This document shows positions 4,681-10,010 of a stretch of 64,000 bases of DNA, one piece after another. The position numbers were made by a program, and so were the translations under genes. A model generated the notes under the pieces. It had not been told where the DNA came from, did not search any database, and worked only from the letters and a program-made list of their open reading frames with translations. The DNA is taken from NCBI RefSeq assembly GCF_000403135.1, contig NZ_AQPN01000077.1:1-64000 (forward strand), written 5' to 3'. The stretch's first letter is position 1; each line of letters starts with the position of its first letter. This DNA comes from Arcticibacter svalbardensis MN12-7. Lineage in GTDB: Bacteria > Bacteroidota > Bacteroidia > Sphingobacteriales > Sphingobacteriaceae.

Positions 4681-5382
4681 TCAGGAATTATAAATAATCA
4701 CCTGCCATCTGAACGCCCATTTCCATTCAATTTTATATTTGTTCACTCCTGCTTTTGCCAGCAGCGACTTCAATTCATCTTTTTTAAAGCTCCGTCTTAC
4801 GGATAATGGGCCGTCATTGCGCATCATCTTATTGGGAATGACGACAGTGAAAATAGCAATCAGGGAGTAATACAAAAGCCAGTGACGGTGTAAGTCTGTG
4901 ACTATAACCCCTCGTTTAGCCGTTTTTACCATTTTCTTAATTAGTTGAACCCAGGCATCATCTTCAAAATGATGTGTAAACAGACTCGATAAGATGATAT
5001 CAAACTGATTATCCTTTAAATCAGTACTCATTACATCAGTCTGGATGTATTTGATGTTCAGATAATTGCTAGTTGCTGTGTGTGCAAAAGACAGAACTCC
5101 TGCTGAGGCATCCACTCCAGTTAACTTTAAAGGTAATTTTCTTTTTTTTGCCCAGTCAGCTATTGCTTTCAAAGCATCTCCACCTCCGCATCCCCAGTCA
5201 CTAATATGATTCTCTGATTGTACCGGAAATTCCTTCAATGCTTTAATTAAACTAGCATGACCGCCAAACCATGCATTTAGGTTACCCAAGCCTTTAAGTA
5301 CAGGATCAAGCTCAGTTTTAGGTAAATCAAAGTCATCCATAATTTCGTCAACACCACGAATACGCTTGCTAAAGTCAACCAT
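4681..5382 (-). CDS. SAM-dependent methyltransferase of the type III PKS operon
   Basis: 233 residues, class I methyltransferase fold. Motif I SDWGCGGGDA is at 61-70, the acidic residue of motif II is GVDAS at about 90, and IILSSLFTHHF lies near 135. Third gene of a tight operon (PKS, FAD enzyme, methyltransferase), starting 6 nt after the FAD gene. By analogy with SrsB of Streptomyces griseus, which acts after SrsA (type III PKS), it may O- or C-methylate a phenolic polyketide lipid. The substrate is inferred. Residues 160-185 are hydrophobic (HWLLYYSLIAIFTVVIP), possibly membrane-associating, which fits a lipid substrate. Confidence 0.85.
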   Translation of the reverse strand: MVDFSKRIRGVDEIMDDFDLPKTELDPVLKGLGNLNAWFGGHASLIKALKEFPVQSENHISDWGCGGGDALKAIADWAKKRKLPLKLTGVDASAGVLSFAHTATSNYLNIKYIQTDVMSTDLKDNQFDIILSSLFTHHFEDDAWVQLIKKMVKTAKRGVIVTDLHRHWLLYYSLIAIFTVVIPNKMMRNDGPLSVRRSFKKDELKSLLAKAGVNKYKIEWKWAFRWQVIIYNS

Positions 5383-5388
5383 ATATTT

Positions 5389-6525
5389 TTATTTTAAGAG
5401 TCCAAAAGGTTTACCATGAGTGCGTTTTATTAAGTAGGCGGCCATCGCTGGCGAACCATTCATTAGATGTATAGCCAGGTTCATCAAGGTGTTATTTCCA
5501 AACATAGATTGCAATTTGCGCCCGGTCCATAATCGCTTTGCAAATTGCTTATTCCAAGCCTCAATATAAGATTGCTCCATTTTGTTTCGCCGCTCTAAAG
5601 AAAATGCAGATCCATCTTTATAGCTGCGTATAATTATTTCAGAGAGGATTTTAGCTGAATGAATGGCCATCGTCATCCCGTTGCCACATAAAGGGGCAAT
5701 CATTCCGGCTGTATCGCCACTCATCAAAATATGCTGTTCTACCGGTTGCTTTTTCTCAAAGGATATTTCGTTAATCACCTCGGGTTTATCCATGAGCATC
5801 TCTGCGTTTTTAAATAGAGCCTTCTGATAAGGGTTTTTGTTTATGAGTCCTTCCTGCAAATCTTGCAGGTTGCCATATTGACGTAAATCATCGCGATGGG
5901 CTAATGAGCAGATGCAATAACGGTCATCCTCAATTTTTGATACCCCACAATATCCATTTTTAAAACTATTCAGCTGAATTAAATTATCCGGAAAATCAAT
6001 TTTAGCATGGATCTTTATGCCGATATACGGACTGCGATGATGAAAAAAACTTCGGTTTAGCTTGCTATCCAGGTTAGAGCGTTTGCCAAATGAACCAATA
6101 ACCAATGGGGCAGTAAGGATCCGATCAGGCAAAGTAACCTCAAAGCTGTTTTGAATGAATTGAATATTCTCCACACGTGTATCAAGCATAAAGGTTACAC
6201 CCATGGCTTTGCACTTATGATAGAGATACTGATCAAAGGTATATCGACTTAATCCAAAACCACCCAGATCAAGTTGTTGTGCAAATTTAGCTCCTGAAGT
6301 GGCAGTCACTTCCAGTCGTGTAATATTCGATGCATGAAGAGTAGTGACATCAATATCCAGTTCCTTAAAAAAGGGGAGGACTTCATTGGAAATATACTCA
6401 CCGCAAACCCGGTGGAAGGGATACGACTTTTTTTCTATAACGGTAACTTGTAAGCCAGCTTTGTTCAGTAATAGCGCATTAAATAAACCTGCTAGTCCAC
6501 CGCCTGCAATAATTACGTCGCACAT
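5389..6525 (-). CDS. FAD-dependent oxidoreductase of the type III PKS operon
   Basis: 378 residues of the geranylgeranyl-reductase/aromatic-hydroxylase superfamily. The dinucleotide-binding GGGLAG is at 8-13, an acidic strand end at EKK near 36, the second FAD motif GDTAG followed by PLCGNGMTMA near 270. It lies between the type III PKS (3-nt gap) and the methyltransferase. The same enzyme types form the srs operon of Streptomyces griseus, where the flavoprotein hydroxylates an alkylresorcinol to a quinol. Hydroxylation or reduction of the polyketide product is the inferred job here. Confidence 0.85.
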   Translation of the reverse strand: MCDVIIAGGGLAGLFNALLLNKAGLQVTVIEKKSYPFHRVCGEYISNEVLPFFKELDIDVTTLHASNITRLEVTATSGAKFAQQLDLGGFGLSRYTFDQYLYHKCKAMGVTFMLDTRVENIQFIQNSFEVTLPDRILTAPLVIGSFGKRSNLDSKLNRSFFHHRSPYIGIKIHAKIDFPDNLIQLNSFKNGYCGVSKIEDDRYCICSLAHRDDLRQYGNLQDLQEGLINKNPYQKALFKNAEMLMDKPEVINEISFEKKQPVEQHILMSGDTAGMIAPLCGNGMTMAIHSAKILSEIIIRSYKDGSAFSLERRNKMEQSYIEAWNKQFAKRLWTGRKLQSMFGNNTLMNLAIHLMNGSPAMAAYLIKRTHGKPFGLLK

Positions 6526-6528
6526 CCT

Positions 6529-7635
6529 TTAACAAACCTTAAGAACCATACCTTCAACAGTTAAACCTGGCCCAAATGCAAAGCTCAAAACACGTTGGTT
6601 GGATAACATTCCGGCATTTAAGATCTTTTGCAACACAAATAAGATGGTGGCTGATGACATATTACCATATTTACGCAAAACCTCATAAGCAAAAGTGTTG
6701 CTTTCTTCAGGTAGTTCTAAAGATTCCTCCACAGCTTCCAGGATCTTTTTACCTCCCGGATGAATAGCATACAATTCAATTTGCTCTTTTGTGAGTCCAG
6801 CCTTTTGAAGTAAGCGGTCTGTAACCCCTTTTATATTTTTCCTGATCTGCTTGGATACTTTAGAAGTAAGTTTCATTTCGAAACCCGTGTTGCCAACAAA
6901 CCAGCCCATTTCATGACGACTTTCGGGTAAAAACTCAGAGTAAAAATTTTCAATCATGAGGCCTGTCCCGTTACCTGATTGATTATCAGAATGCTCAATG
7001 AGTGCAGCAGCAGAGCCATCAGAAAAAAGAGAATTAGCAACCCAGTTATCTAAGGTGTTCGTCTTTTGGAAGTGAAGTGTGCATAGCTCAACAGAAACCA
7101 GCAATACCTTGGCCTTTGGATCAGCTCTACAAATATAATCGGCCGCTTTCAATCCGTTAATCGCACCATAGCAACCCATGAAATTAATACAAGTGCGTTC
7201 GGTGGTGCGTTTAAGTCCCAGCTGTTCCACCAGATCAACATCAATTCCCGGGGCATACATTCCGGTACAGCTAACCGTGATCAAATGGGTTATTTGCTCT
7301 GTTATTTGATCGTCAAAATGAGAAAGACATTTTTGAGACGCTTGTAAAGCTATTTTAATGGCTTTTTCCTGATAGATTTGAAGTCGCTTGTGGGTAGTTA
7401 CAAATGGTTCGAGATCAGCAGAAGGTTCAAAAAATGTAAAATCAACCGGTTGAGCATCGAAATCATCAATCACTGAATAGCGGTAATTAATACCGGAATT
7501 ATCATAAATGCTTTTTAACCGGGCGGCATGGTCCGGACTAAGAGCAAAAGCATTTACCATAAAAGAGTATATATTTTGTTGAGAAAGCCGGTTTTCCGGA
7601 TTAGCAATTCCTATTGCGCTGATTAAACTACTCAT
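6529..7635 (-). CDS. Type III polyketide synthase (chalcone/alkylresorcinol synthase family)
   Basis: 368 residues, thiolase fold. The catalytic triad is visible: Cys155 in NFMGCYGA, His292 in IHPGGKK and Asn325 in YGNMSSA. An additional CTGMYAPGID at 123-132 matches the conserved strand of the family. It extends an acyl-CoA starter with malonyl-CoA and cyclises the chain to a resorcinol or pyrone; in bacteria with this operon layout the starter is often a long-chain fatty acyl. First gene of the operon; about 400 bases of upstream DNA carry no other gene. Product identity cannot be read from sequence. Confidence 0.93.
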   Translation of the reverse strand: MSSLISAIGIANPENRLSQQNIYSFMVNAFALSPDHAARLKSIYDNSGINYRYSVIDDFDAQPVDFTFFEPSADLEPFVTTHKRLQIYQEKAIKIALQASQKCLSHFDDQITEQITHLITVSCTGMYAPGIDVDLVEQLGLKRTTERTCINFMGCYGAINGLKAADYICRADPKAKVLLVSVELCTLHFQKTNTLDNWVANSLFSDGSAAALIEHSDNQSGNGTGLMIENFYSEFLPESRHEMGWFVGNTGFEMKLTSKVSKQIRKNIKGVTDRLLQKAGLTKEQIELYAIHPGGKKILEAVEESLELPEESNTFAYEVLRKYGNMSSATILFVLQKILNAGMLSNQRVLSFAFGPGLTVEGMVLKVC

Positions 7636-8029
7636 CTGCTATATTTAGTTTATTGATTGACCTACATATAGTATTGTGAAGTAGTATTCATATCATCAAT
7701 ATTATAAGTGTGTGTATCCGATAAAGCATCAGAACTGTGATTTGTTTTTCAATAAATTGTCATTTAAAACTGTAGCAAATTTGATTTTGCATATTCAGAA
7801 CAGTAAAGTACTATTGATTTTTATATTACGTTATTATAAATAGTGCTAGTAATGGAAGAGTAATACTTAGGTATTAGAAGAAATTACTTGGTGAGTTTTG
7901 GAATTTGTAGTAGAATTGCTTTTTAAGCTATGAAATTGATAATAAATGTTAAAATGTGTTAAAATATTTGCAATTGTCAATATTATAACGATATTTGTAT
8001 CAACAAGTTCTTAAAGGCTTTTAAAATAC
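7636..8029. other. Intergenic region upstream of the PKS operon and first tRNA-like gene
   Basis: 394 bases of strongly AT-rich DNA without an ORF. The left part should hold the PKS operon promoter, although no good TAnnTTTG is seen on the minus strand. The right part (7967-7997) holds the probable promoter of the first tRNA-like gene. Nothing else is recognised. Confidence 0.5.
7967..7997 (+). promoter_or_regulatory. Putative promoter of tRNA-like gene 1
   Basis: TTTG at 7967-7970 and GATATTTG at 7990-7997 (one mismatch to TAnnTTTG). Spacing is nearly the same as in the better-conserved promoter of copy 2. The tRNA-like 5' end lies 33 nt downstream. Confidence 0.45.
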
Positions 8030-8139
8030 TGTAGGGTGGTGAAATTGGCAGACACTCCTCCTTGTCCCGGTGGCGGAGATCATGGGAAATCCGGAAACGG
8101 TTTAACCACTCTTTGAAGGTTCGATTCCTTCCCTTACAG
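8030..8139 (+). tRNA. Type II tRNA-like gene, copy 1 (Leu-type body, GUC at anticodon position)
   Basis: 110 nt that fold as a tRNA. The acceptor stem TGTAGGG pairs with CCTTACA (one G-U), discriminator G8139, no encoded CCA. T8 and a D-arm GTG/CAC with the loop AAATTGGCAGA follow. The anticodon stem CCTCC/GGTGG has a central T-T mismatch, and the 7-nt loop TTGTCCC puts GTC at 34-36. The variable region is 41 nt with a nested hairpin closed by a GAAA loop, and the T arm GAAGG-TTCGATT-CCTTC is canonical. The D arm is Leu-like, but G73, pyrimidine 37, the Asp anticodon and the oversized variable region are abnormal. It could be a specialised tRNA, a tRNA-derived regulatory RNA or a decaying copy. 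Confidence 0.6.
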
Positions 8140-8177
8140 CTCCTTTCAATAATTTAGGTTTATAATTGGTTAGTTTG

Positions 8178-8207
8178 AGCTCTCGCCCATCGAGAGCTTA
8201 TTTTTTT
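8178..8207 (+). terminator. Intrinsic terminator of tRNA-like gene 1
   Basis: Perfect 8-bp stem AGCTCTCG paired with CGAGAGCT, CCCAT loop, then TATTTTTTT. It starts 38 nt after the tRNA-like 3' end. Confidence 0.88.
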
Positions 8208-8292
8208 GCCTAAATTTTCGGTTTATATAATTTTCATAAAAGCGAATTCCCTATTACTTTATTTACATATAATTACATTTTATTTTTAAATA

Positions 8293-8324
8293 TTTGCAAC
8301 GTATTGGTTATGTTATTATCTTTG
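8293..8324 (+). promoter_or_regulatory. Putative promoter of tRNA-like gene 2
   Basis: TTTG at 8293-8296, 20 nt, then a perfect TATCTTTG at 8317-8324. This is the clearest Bacteroidetes-type promoter in the window. The predicted start lies roughly 28 nt before the tRNA-like 5' end. Confidence 0.65.
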
Positions 8325-8358
8325 AGTCAACAAATGGTTATCAGTTTGTTAATTATAC

Positions 8359-8468
8359 TGTAGGGTGGTGAAACTGGCAGACACACCTCCTTGTCTCGGT
8401 GGCGGAGATCATGGGAAAACCGGAAACGGTCTAACTACTCCTTGGAGGTTCGATTCCTTCCCCTACAG
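8359..8468 (+). tRNA. Type II tRNA-like gene, copy 2 (Leu-type body, GUC at anticodon position)
   Basis: 110 nt, differing from copy 1 at nine positions. The acceptor TGTAGGG/CCCTACA is now fully Watson-Crick, discriminator G8468. The D arm is GTG/CAC with AAACTGGCAGA. The anticodon stem CCTCC/GGTGG keeps the T-T mismatch, and the loop TTGTCTC keeps GTC. The 41-nt variable region (8403-8443) keeps the CCG-GAAA-CGG hairpin, and the T arm is GGAGG-TTCGATT-CCTTC. Most changes between copies preserve pairing, which argues for selection on the RNA. The anticodon meaning is uncertain, as for copy 1. Confidence 0.6.
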
Positions 8469-8506
8469 CTCCTTTCAATAATTTAGGTTTATAATTGGTT
8501 AGTTTG

Positions 8507-8536
8507 AGCTTCCGCCCATCGGGAGCTTATTTTTTT
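8507..8536 (+). terminator. Intrinsic terminator of tRNA-like gene 2
   Basis: Stem AGCTTCCG paired with CGGGAGCT, CCCAT loop, then TATTTTTTT. Relative to copy 1 one pair changed T-A to C-G and one C-G to T-G, so the stem is kept. Confidence 0.88.
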
Positions 8537-8843
8537 GCCCAATTTTCCTGATAGATAAAATCCTCAACAGTTTGAATTTCAGATATATAAAATAGGAGAT
8601 AACTCCGAATGGGAAACGTAATGCGTAGGGCTGAGGTACACTGTTTACTTTTGTCTCGTTCCTTGGTGTTCCTTTGTAGCTTCGTCTGGAGTCGAACAAG
8701 CAAGGGAGCGCCAAGGGTTAACCAACGAACAACCATCAAAGCATGTATAAAACAGAGTCGTTCACTTCCCATTCTATAATGGAGGTTAATCTTGTTCGAT
8801 ACCGCAAGTGATTTTGGAAGCCGATAAGTTGAGTTTAAAATCT
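8537..8843. other. Non-coding stretch after tRNA-like gene 2
   Basis: Two overlapping minus-strand reading frames occur here, but neither looks like a protein: both are rich in Arg/Leu/Ser, without a domain, and cross the tRNA-like terminator. The stretch is less AT-rich than its surroundings and may be decayed DNA. I see no repeat or RNA signal in it. Confidence 0.35.
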
Positions 8844-9771: not shown

Positions 9772-9881
9772 AATCTTCGGGGTTTTTGTTGATGTAAAGT
9801 TAGGCAGGTTGCACTGAAGAAAAAATGACAATGATTACTAAATAAGGTAATATAAGTCGTTTGATTGGCTTAAATCAAGCA

Positions 9882-9947
9882 AAATGCTCCTTTTAGAGCG
9901 AAGATTTAGGAATATTTATTCCAAAATCTATTCTAAAAGGAGCATTT
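9882..9947. repeat. 66-nt near-perfect palindrome
   Basis: Outer arms AAATGCTCCTTTTAGA and its exact complement (16 bp). The inner part folds further as GATTT/AAATC and GGAAT/ATTCC around a 4-nt loop. No T-run follows on either strand, so it is not a typical intrinsic terminator. It lies between yajQ and the usp gene. Confidence 0.85.
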
Positions 9948-10010
9948 AATAGGTGATCTGCATAATGATTTGGTATGCTAAACTATTATGCTAAACATAT
10001 AAGGAGGATT

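Follow-up and report, generated by a model that had tools for sequence, protein, structure and literature searches.

A phylum-wide family of tRNA-like RNAs in Bacteroidota with conserved aspartate identity positions and frequent linkage to asnC

The use of tRNAs outside translation is already known in kind. The peptidoglycan tRNA-Gly set of Staphylococcus aureus consists of tRNA paralogues that work outside the ribosome; these are type I tRNAs that feed Fem enzymes. tRNAs that do decode keep U33 and a purine at position 37. Small RNAs can also be linked to tRNAs, as in 3'ETS-leuZ of E. coli, which lies directly after a tRNA 3' end, or to regulators, as in GcvB of E. coli, whose gene is divergent from gcvA, the gene of an amino-acid-responsive LysR-type regulator. 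Aspartate identity in bacteria is specified by G73, G34, U35, C36, C38 and G10, with G2-C71 as a minor element, and both G1-C72 and G2-C71 are conserved in bacterial tRNA-Asp, G1-C72 strictly (PMC9976931). Allo-tRNAs and tRNA-Sec-like tRNAs, reported from Clostridia, Proteobacteria and Acidobacteria, are type II tRNAs of non-ordinary isotypes with unusual anticodons, including GUC, and some are polycistronic (PMC7609411). In Bacteroides thetaiotaomicron, BatR has been reported near genes with Lrp/AsnC domains (PMC10861873). Here we describe a tRNA-like RNA of Bacteroidota and compare it with these systems.

We analysed a 64-kb window, meaning the whole stretch of DNA studied here, which carries two copies of the tRNA-like gene. 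The features are as follows.

7967-7997, plus strand: putative Bacteroidota-type promoter of copy 1, with TTTG at 7967-7970, 19 bases, and GATATTTG at 7990-7997 (7/8 to TAnnTTTG)
8007-8012, plus strand: boxA-like GTTCTT in the leader of copy 1, from leader enrichment
8030-8139, plus strand: tRNA-like RNA copy 1, 110 nt, from sequence and covariance models; 7-bp acceptor 8030-8036/8132-8138, D arm 8039-8055, anticodon arm 8057-8073, variable arm 8075-8112, T arm 8115-8131, G73 at 8139
8064-8066, plus strand: GUC at the anticodon position of copy 1, in the loop 8062-8068 (TTGTCCC)
8140-8207, plus strand: 3' module of copy 1, CTCCTTTCAATAATTTA, with the motif GGTTTATAATTGGTTAG at 8157-8173, a terminator hairpin with a CCCAT loop at 8178-8198, and a T run
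8293-8324, plus strand: putative promoter of copy 2, with TTTG at 8293-8296, 20 bases, and TATCTTTG at 8317-8324
8359-8468, plus strand: tRNA-like RNA copy 2, 110 nt, from sequence and covariance models; acceptor 8359-8365/8461-8467, anticodon arm 8386-8402, variable arm 8404-8441, T arm 8444-8460, G73 at 8468
8393-8395, plus strand: GUC at the anticodon position of copy 2, in the loop 8391-8397 (TTGTCTC)
8469-8538, plus strand: 3' module of copy 2, starting with CTCCTTTC, with the motif GGTTTATAATTGGTTAG at 8486-8502, a C-loop terminator hairpin and a T run

Both copies have T8-G9, a GTG/CAC D stem, GG in the D loop, an anticodon stem CCTCC/GGTGG with a T29-T41 (U29-U41) mismatch, a 41-nt variable region made of a GGAG/CTCY base and a GAAA-capped hairpin, the T loop TTCGATT, and G73. 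The acceptor is TGTAGGG/CCTTACA, with one G-U pair, in copy 1 and TGTAGGG/CCCTACA in copy 2, and position 37 is C and T, respectively. An earlier description made from the letters alone had proposed two 110-nt genes with these arms, a T-T mismatch in the anticodon stem, GUC, pyrimidine 37 and G73, and it proved exact to the base. In a genome-wide Infernal search with RF00005, the copies scored 31.6 and 32.3 bits, just above the gathering threshold of 29, with exactly the predicted boundaries (8030-8139 and 8359-8468). The same search returned 40 ordinary tRNAs, with isotypes assigned by ARAGORN that include tRNA-Asp(GTC), and a third full copy on contig C76 (35.6 bits); a homologue from another locus (L301) reached 40.3 bits against the same threshold. 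ARAGORN called no tRNA in the 64-kb window, nor any of the family members tested, and cmscan of a 3-kb stretch around the window genes gave no tRNA at E<1. The window copies scored 126.8 and 133.3 bits with our covariance model R1. Minimum-energy folding of these copies did not give a cloverleaf and did no better than with shuffled sequence (z of 0.36 and -0.27). Single-sequence folding is uninformative here, and the structure of the window genes is supported by comparison with homologues.

We searched for such homologues at several scales. In the window genome, BLAST with the unit recovered all three full copies, a truncated one on contig C62 that has only the acceptor and T arm, and two 3' modules without a tRNA part. 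Several unit copies were present in each of six out of six genomes of the window's genus, and the unit was matched at E<=0.001 in 138 of the 151 Sphingobacteriaceae genomes sampled, a figure that includes weak matches. In genera such as g4, g16 and g17, the best matches (1e-6 to 1e-11) probably reflect an ordinary tRNA-Leu or the 3' module, which we suspected because the covariance-search scores were bimodal. One locus (G003/L010) turned out to coincide with a locus of Arcticibacter pallidicorallinus (L134), which makes Arcticibacter the probable genus of the window. An exact-pattern scan of GTDB genomes, using a pattern derived from Sphingobacteriaceae, gave at least 120 stretches; the 80 named loci among the matches listed came from Sphingobacteriaceae or from metagenome bins whose label gave no more than Sphingobacteriales or Bacteroidetes. 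When R1 was run on 198 class genomes, a second group of matches emerged (about 63-96 bits, 107-176 nt), well separated from the tRNA-Leu-like matches of 80-87 nt. A broader model, R2, was built from 76 sequences and matched 67 of 395 class genomes at E<=1e-13, with 19 families counted, and 39 of 396 phylum genomes, which added three f48 genomes from another class and brought the count to 20 families. Both figures include one genome (G415) whose match is an ordinary 77-nt tRNA. The homologues found by the covariance models in these 20 families of the phylum are 107-194 nt long. Stricter filters were used in the many-genome searches, so some homologues may be missed, and the models were trained on related loops, so homologues with very different loops may have escaped. 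Phages, plasmids and viral contigs gave no match at the sensitivity used, and we rejected a mobile element on this ground. An origin of the tRNA part within Sphingobacteriaceae was likewise rejected, because homologues exist in other families. Judged by these comparisons, the RNA is a family conserved across the phylum, neither stray nor strain-specific. Several genomes (L358, L373, L374 and L032) have three to five tRNA-like copies in a tandem row.

The predicted fold is supported by compensatory changes. In an alignment of 26 sequences, all 23 pairs were kept (100% paired), six of them doubly changed, and none of 500 shuffles reached this; compensatory changes were found in all five helices and held up in sequences outside the training set. 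In an independent set of 45 distinct sequences from 35 loci, none used for R2 (A5), 99.8% of cells were paired and 13 pairs were changed on both sides, again with 0 of 500 shuffles; sets A2 and A3 support the fold likewise. The anticodon arm CCTCC-TTGTCNC-GGTGG was constant, T29-T41 included, in 171 distinct Sphingobacteriaceae copies, in two of which position 33 is C, and position 37 is T, C or G in copies of this family. For the pattern-scan loci among the matches listed, this constancy partly reflects how the loci were chosen; 42 copies found by similarity or by model agree with it. Homologues of the second group mostly have the acceptor TGTRGGG/CCCYACA, with the same T arm, G73, and the loop [TC][TG]GTCNC in nearly all. 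The loop departs in 2 of 34 sequences, L326 and L327, which look decayed, L327 having no loop. Anticodon stems in the other families are normal and covary (CCCTC/GGGGG, CCGCC/GGCGG, CCAGC/GCTGG, CCACC/GGTGG and CCCGC/GCGGG), as do the D stems (GTG/CAC, ATG/CAT, TTG/CAA and ACG/CGT), with 12 doubly changed pairs overall. The covariation of the acceptor, D, anticodon and T stems satisfies the cloverleaf criterion of RF00005. The variable region ranges across the family from about 40 to over 100 nt.

The variable arm of the long forms contains a motif, GGGTTGACCAC, in 25 of 45 sequences of at least 133 nt (L308, L309, L311, L315, L318-L320, L322, L328 and others), and a looser form, GGNTTGACC, is in none of the short RNAs. 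In family f57, the RNA is directly followed by a conserved hairpin that resembles a terminator and has a loop around TTTGTGATGGTT (L309, L318, L319 and L327).

We then compared the conserved positions with those of known tRNAs. In A5, U35, C36 and G73 were present in 45/45 sequences, C38 in 44/45 and G34 in 43/45; in A3, U35, C36, C38, G73 and G2-C71 were present in 71/71 and G34 in 70/71. The family therefore meets the tRNA-Asp criterion of G73, G34, U35, C36 and C38. It does not meet the G1-C72 part, as every member has U1-A72, nor does it have the short type I loop, and G10 is kept as a rule only in Sphingobacteriaceae. Position 37 in A5 was U in 44/45 and C in 1/45, while U33 was found in only 29/45, the others having A, G or C, so the elongator criterion of U33 with purine 37 is not met. 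The alignments thus indicate a family that keeps five strong aspartate determinants and G2-C71 while breaking two rules of decoding tRNAs. This suggests selection for recognition by aspartyl-tRNA synthetase (AspRS) without decoding, because the aspartate positions are locked and U33 and purine 37 are not kept; charging and exclusion from the ribosome are both inferred. Base 74 after G73 is an encoded C in 171/171 Sphingobacteriaceae copies and 79/79 others, as in the ordinary tRNAs of the genome, which fits tRNA-type 3' processing, itself an inference.

These results bear on several points of the original prediction. Its statement that no standard isotype fits needs correction, since the conserved G73, G34, U35, C36, C38 and G2-C71 are positions of aspartate identity. 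The two outcomes that it had named as refuting it did not materialise: an unconserved, single-strain sequence is ruled out by homologues across the phylum, and an ordinary tRNA-Leu with a misfolded insertion by the conservation of G73, GUC and C38 across families. The search of Sphingobacteriaceae that it had proposed showed the sequence to be widespread, but the window pair represents only one branch, the usual place of the family being beside asnC, and in Sphingobacteriaceae the genes are also the front portion of a longer predicted transcript that runs on into the conserved 3' module. Among the roles it had offered, a tRNA used outside translation and a tRNA-derived regulatory RNA both fit, while reassigned decoding is disfavoured because U33 is not kept outside Sphingobacteriaceae and most members have pyrimidine 37.

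The tRNA-like RNA likely derives from tRNA-Leu(GAG), as far as similarity can tell. Its 5' half scores 20 against tRNA-Leu(GAG), with the next best at 9, and the anticodon stem of that tRNA is CCACC/GGTGG, in which one A-to-T change yields the mismatch. The two share the D arm and anticodon stem (CACCACCTTGAGGGGGTGGCG versus CACCTCCTTGTCTCGGTGGCG) and the type II shape, whereas the tRNA-like RNA has GUC instead of GAG, C38, a far longer variable arm, and G73 in all sequences, so that the tRNA-Leu criterion of A73 is not met. With bacterial tRNA-Asp(GUC) it shares G73, G34, U35, C36, C38, G2-C71 and the encoded C74 after G73, but differs in its variable arm of about 40 to over 100 nt, U1-A72 in place of G1-C72, the lack of a kept U33, pyrimidine 37, and asnC as divergent neighbour. 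Like the allo-tRNAs and tRNA-Sec-like tRNAs (PMC7609411), it is a type II RNA with an unusual anticodon and no ordinary isotype, but those have 8/4 or 9/3 arms and serine identity, while its acceptor and T arms are 7/5 and its identity is Asp-like. Their criterion (8/4, 9/3 or 8/5 acceptor/T arm) is not met, and pairing of a C at position -1 with G73 is possible in only 91/171 copies. Their reported hosts also differ from Bacteroidota. The likeness to the S. aureus tRNA-Gly set is that of a tRNA paralogue outside the ribosome; that set differs in being type I glycine tRNAs feeding Fem enzymes, and we know of no linkage of the tRNA-like RNA to a Fem-type enzyme. The window genome has an ordinary tRNA-Asp(GTC) and a broad set of ordinary tRNAs, and no second, dedicated AspRS was apparent in it among matches to the asparaginyl-tRNA synthetase (AsnRS) model. 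We also considered tRNA-dependent asparagine synthesis; a need for the RNA as an Asn-tRNA precursor is unlikely, because AsnRS was present in 40 of 40 genomes tested, both with and without the RNA.

Each window copy has its own putative promoter (spacer of 19-20 bases), followed by the RNA, CTCCTTTCAATAATTTAGGTTTATAATTGGTTAGTTTGAGC, a terminator hairpin and a T run. The pattern TTTG-N17-21-TAnnTTTG was found in 109 of 169 Sphingobacteriaceae leaders, compared with 0.4 in shuffled leaders. GTTCTT was found in 84 of these 169 leaders (2.9 shuffled) and in 23 of 79 leaders in other families (2.1 shuffled). It resembles boxA of rRNA leaders, and a role in the tRNA-like leaders is our assumption from this resemblance alone. 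The 16S rRNA 3' end and leader were not found in the window genome assembly.

Clustering of flanking ORFs placed an AsnC/Lrp-type regulator divergent from and immediately upstream of the RNA in 65 of the 80 named loci among the matches listed. In other families, an AsnC orthologue is divergent at 64-217 bp in 19 of 29 loci, and an AsnC gene was found at 20 of 35 further loci, including three from another class. The regulator scored 177 bits with the NCBI AsnC model, under the equivalog cut-off of 227, and its best match of solved structure was E. coli AsnC (2cg4, 2.8e-37). The RNA meets the criterion of a divergent neighbour of an AsnC orthologue for an AsnC-regulated gene, without AsnC binding data. 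In the window genome, the C76 copy (L003) has AsnC at 1351-887 on the minus strand, with the RNA at 1501, while the window copies are flanked by a type III polyketide synthase-like gene on one side and a UspA-like gene on the other, as read by eye, and are thus probably in secondary positions. In some genera, such as the Sphingobacterium-like g17 and g4, asnC is kept, and where the tRNA-like RNA would lie divergently there is only a short RNA carrying the 3' module (L248, L253, L255, L257 and L264), which suggests that the tRNA part can be lost and that the asnC linkage outlives it there. One copy beside asnC (L260, in G017) has D and anticodon arms fused to the 3' module, without a T arm or acceptor. 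The arrangement is similar to GcvB and gcvA in that a noncoding RNA gene is divergent from the gene of an amino-acid-responsive regulator, but GcvB is not tRNA-like and its regulator is LysR-type.

The 17-mer of the 3' module, GGTTTATAATTGGTTRG, was found only in Sphingobacteriaceae among 396 phylum genomes (24 times in 8 genomes), and the reversed 17-mer did not occur in the same genomes. The module follows tRNA-likes, a real tRNA-Cys (L280), an mRNA 3' end or 3'UTR (L030), and acceptor/T-arm minihelix remnants (L004, L025, L029 and L272). Copies without a tRNA part have their own promoter and intrinsic terminator, as sequence patterns only (L268, L269, L271, L278, L281, L285 and L287), and we rejected the idea that the module is always linked to a tRNA, as many copies carry their own promoters. 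The tRNA-likes of other families have ordinary terminators and no such module. The module is, by comparison, a separate small RNA of Sphingobacteriaceae, because its contexts vary and it is absent after the tRNA-likes of other families; its release by the tRNA-like 3' end is inferred. As with 3'ETS-leuZ, maturation of the preceding tRNA 3' end would set free a small RNA that directly adjoins it, but here the small RNA is a conserved multi-copy module behind tRNA-likes, minihelices, tRNA-Cys or mRNA, or alone. In five stand-alone modules (L268, L269, L271, L278 and L287), the near-palindrome TTAGTGT-N7-ACACTA lies over the downstream promoter element; it resembles a repressor or activator site, and sibling copies may answer different signals.

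We lean slightly towards the explanation that the family is an aspartylated, non-decoding type II tRNA-like RNA derived from tRNA-Leu and connected with the Asp/Asn status that AsnC controls. A leucine tRNA, most like tRNA-Leu(GAG), would have become a type II tRNA-like RNA with the aspartate recognition set. Its own promoter would drive it, in most cases in the direction opposite to a divergent asnC-type gene; RNase P, tRNase Z and CCA addition would process it as they do a tRNA, and the ordinary AspRS would attach aspartate. Pyrimidine 37, the dispensable U33 and the swollen variable arm would keep it out of decoding, and the charged or uncharged RNA could then serve in an AsnC circuit as a molecule of Asp/Asn status or as an aspartate donor. 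In Sphingobacteriaceae, the same transcript would carry the 3' small RNA, released by a cut at the end of the tRNA part. Sequence comparison supports the existence of the family, the fold, the conservation of the identity positions, the linkage to asnC, the promoter patterns and the 3' module; processing, charging, exclusion from the ribosome and regulatory output are inferred, as there are no expression, processing or charging data. The replacement of G1-C72 by U1-A72 in every member and the restriction of G10 to Sphingobacteriaceae speak against aspartylation. AspRS is a class II synthetase that approaches the tRNA from the variable-loop side, so the long variable arm might block charging. 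AsnC may merely regulate its neighbour, and the RNA is away from asnC in several lineages. We offer only tentatively, as a possibility short of a favoured view, a phylum-wide control in which a dedicated aspartylated, non-decoding tRNA is the RNA partner of an AsnC-type factor and reports Asp/Asn status, to which Sphingobacteriaceae add the releasable small RNA as a second output.

Other explanations share part of this evidence. The RNA could be an uncharged mimic that titrates AspRS, or another anticodon-loop-binding protein, in an amount set by AsnC, and so tunes Asp-tRNA formation. Such a mimic could explain why the identity positions are kept although U1-A72 replaces G1-C72 and a long arm is added; the asnC linkage agrees with it, and a human non-aminoacylable tRNA-Asp acting on AspRS expression has been reported (PMC8007984). 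However, a mimic does not need G73 and an encoded C74 in every copy, which suggests retained 3' maturation, and we consider this rather unlikely without dismissing it. It is also improbable that the tRNA-like part in Sphingobacteriaceae is only a device for processing or stability, with a tRNase Z cut after G73 freeing the 3' small RNA as the real product. The occurrence of the module behind tRNA-Cys, arm remnants and an mRNA 3' end, or with its own promoter, is consistent with such a device, as is the multi-copy motif confined to Sphingobacteriaceae, with none in the reversed control. Yet homologues elsewhere have ordinary terminators and no module, and a processing signal does not need a locked anticodon loop.

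A working aspartate tRNA specialised for GAC/GAU codons under some condition would account for the complete cloverleaf, GUC at 34-36 and the aspartate identity positions. It is very doubtful given the replacement of U33 in 16 of 45 A5 sequences, U or C at position 37 in that set, the U29-U41 mismatch in 171/171 Sphingobacteriaceae copies (partly chosen for it) and the presence of a normal tRNA-Asp. We give hardly any credence to an anti-Shine-Dalgarno decoy, in which CACCUCCUU of the window copies would imitate the 3' end of 16S rRNA and sequester leaders with a Shine-Dalgarno sequence. ACCTCCTT is indeed present in window copy 2 and in most Sphingobacteriaceae copies, but copy 1 has T26 (CTCCTCC), and the stems of other families, with CCCTC, CCGCC, CCAGC or CCCGC at the same place and pairing kept, largely refute it. 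Decaying tRNA pseudogenes or a dispersed repeat could produce the multi-copy, tandem and truncated relatives and the loopless L327; this reading is scarcely tenable, and for the family as a whole it is already refuted by compensatory changes in all helices across 20 families, by promoters, terminators and asnC synteny, and, within the sensitivity of the search, by the lack of any match in phages, plasmids or viral contigs.

No Rfam family except tRNA scored above its own threshold for the members tested, and in the open-access literature we found no paper on a Bacteroidota tRNA-like RNA or on such an asnC-linked RNA. The RNA is thus a previously uncatalogued family, largely passed over by tRNA finders and Rfam. 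If it is an aspartylated, non-decoding RNA as proposed, it would be a clear example, open to testing, of a tRNA that evolution has turned to a role away from the ribosome, because the positions read by AspRS are locked and two decoding positions are not maintained. The steady asnC partnership, which would be new if functional, hints at a physiological role in amino-acid control. The family also matters for how tRNAs are annotated in common bacteria of soil and water, and Sphingobacteriaceae contribute a small-RNA module present in multiple copies. Elsewhere in the window, methyltransferase-like, FAD-dependent oxidoreductase-like and type III polyketide synthase-like genes lie in a row at 4681-7635 on the minus strand; they were recognised by eye from their translations and may form a small polyketide cluster. 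A long intergenic inverted repeat at 9872-9957, GCTCCTTTTAGA...TCTAAAAGGAGC, is weakly matched on both strands by an unrelated microRNA model and is probably a two-way terminator.
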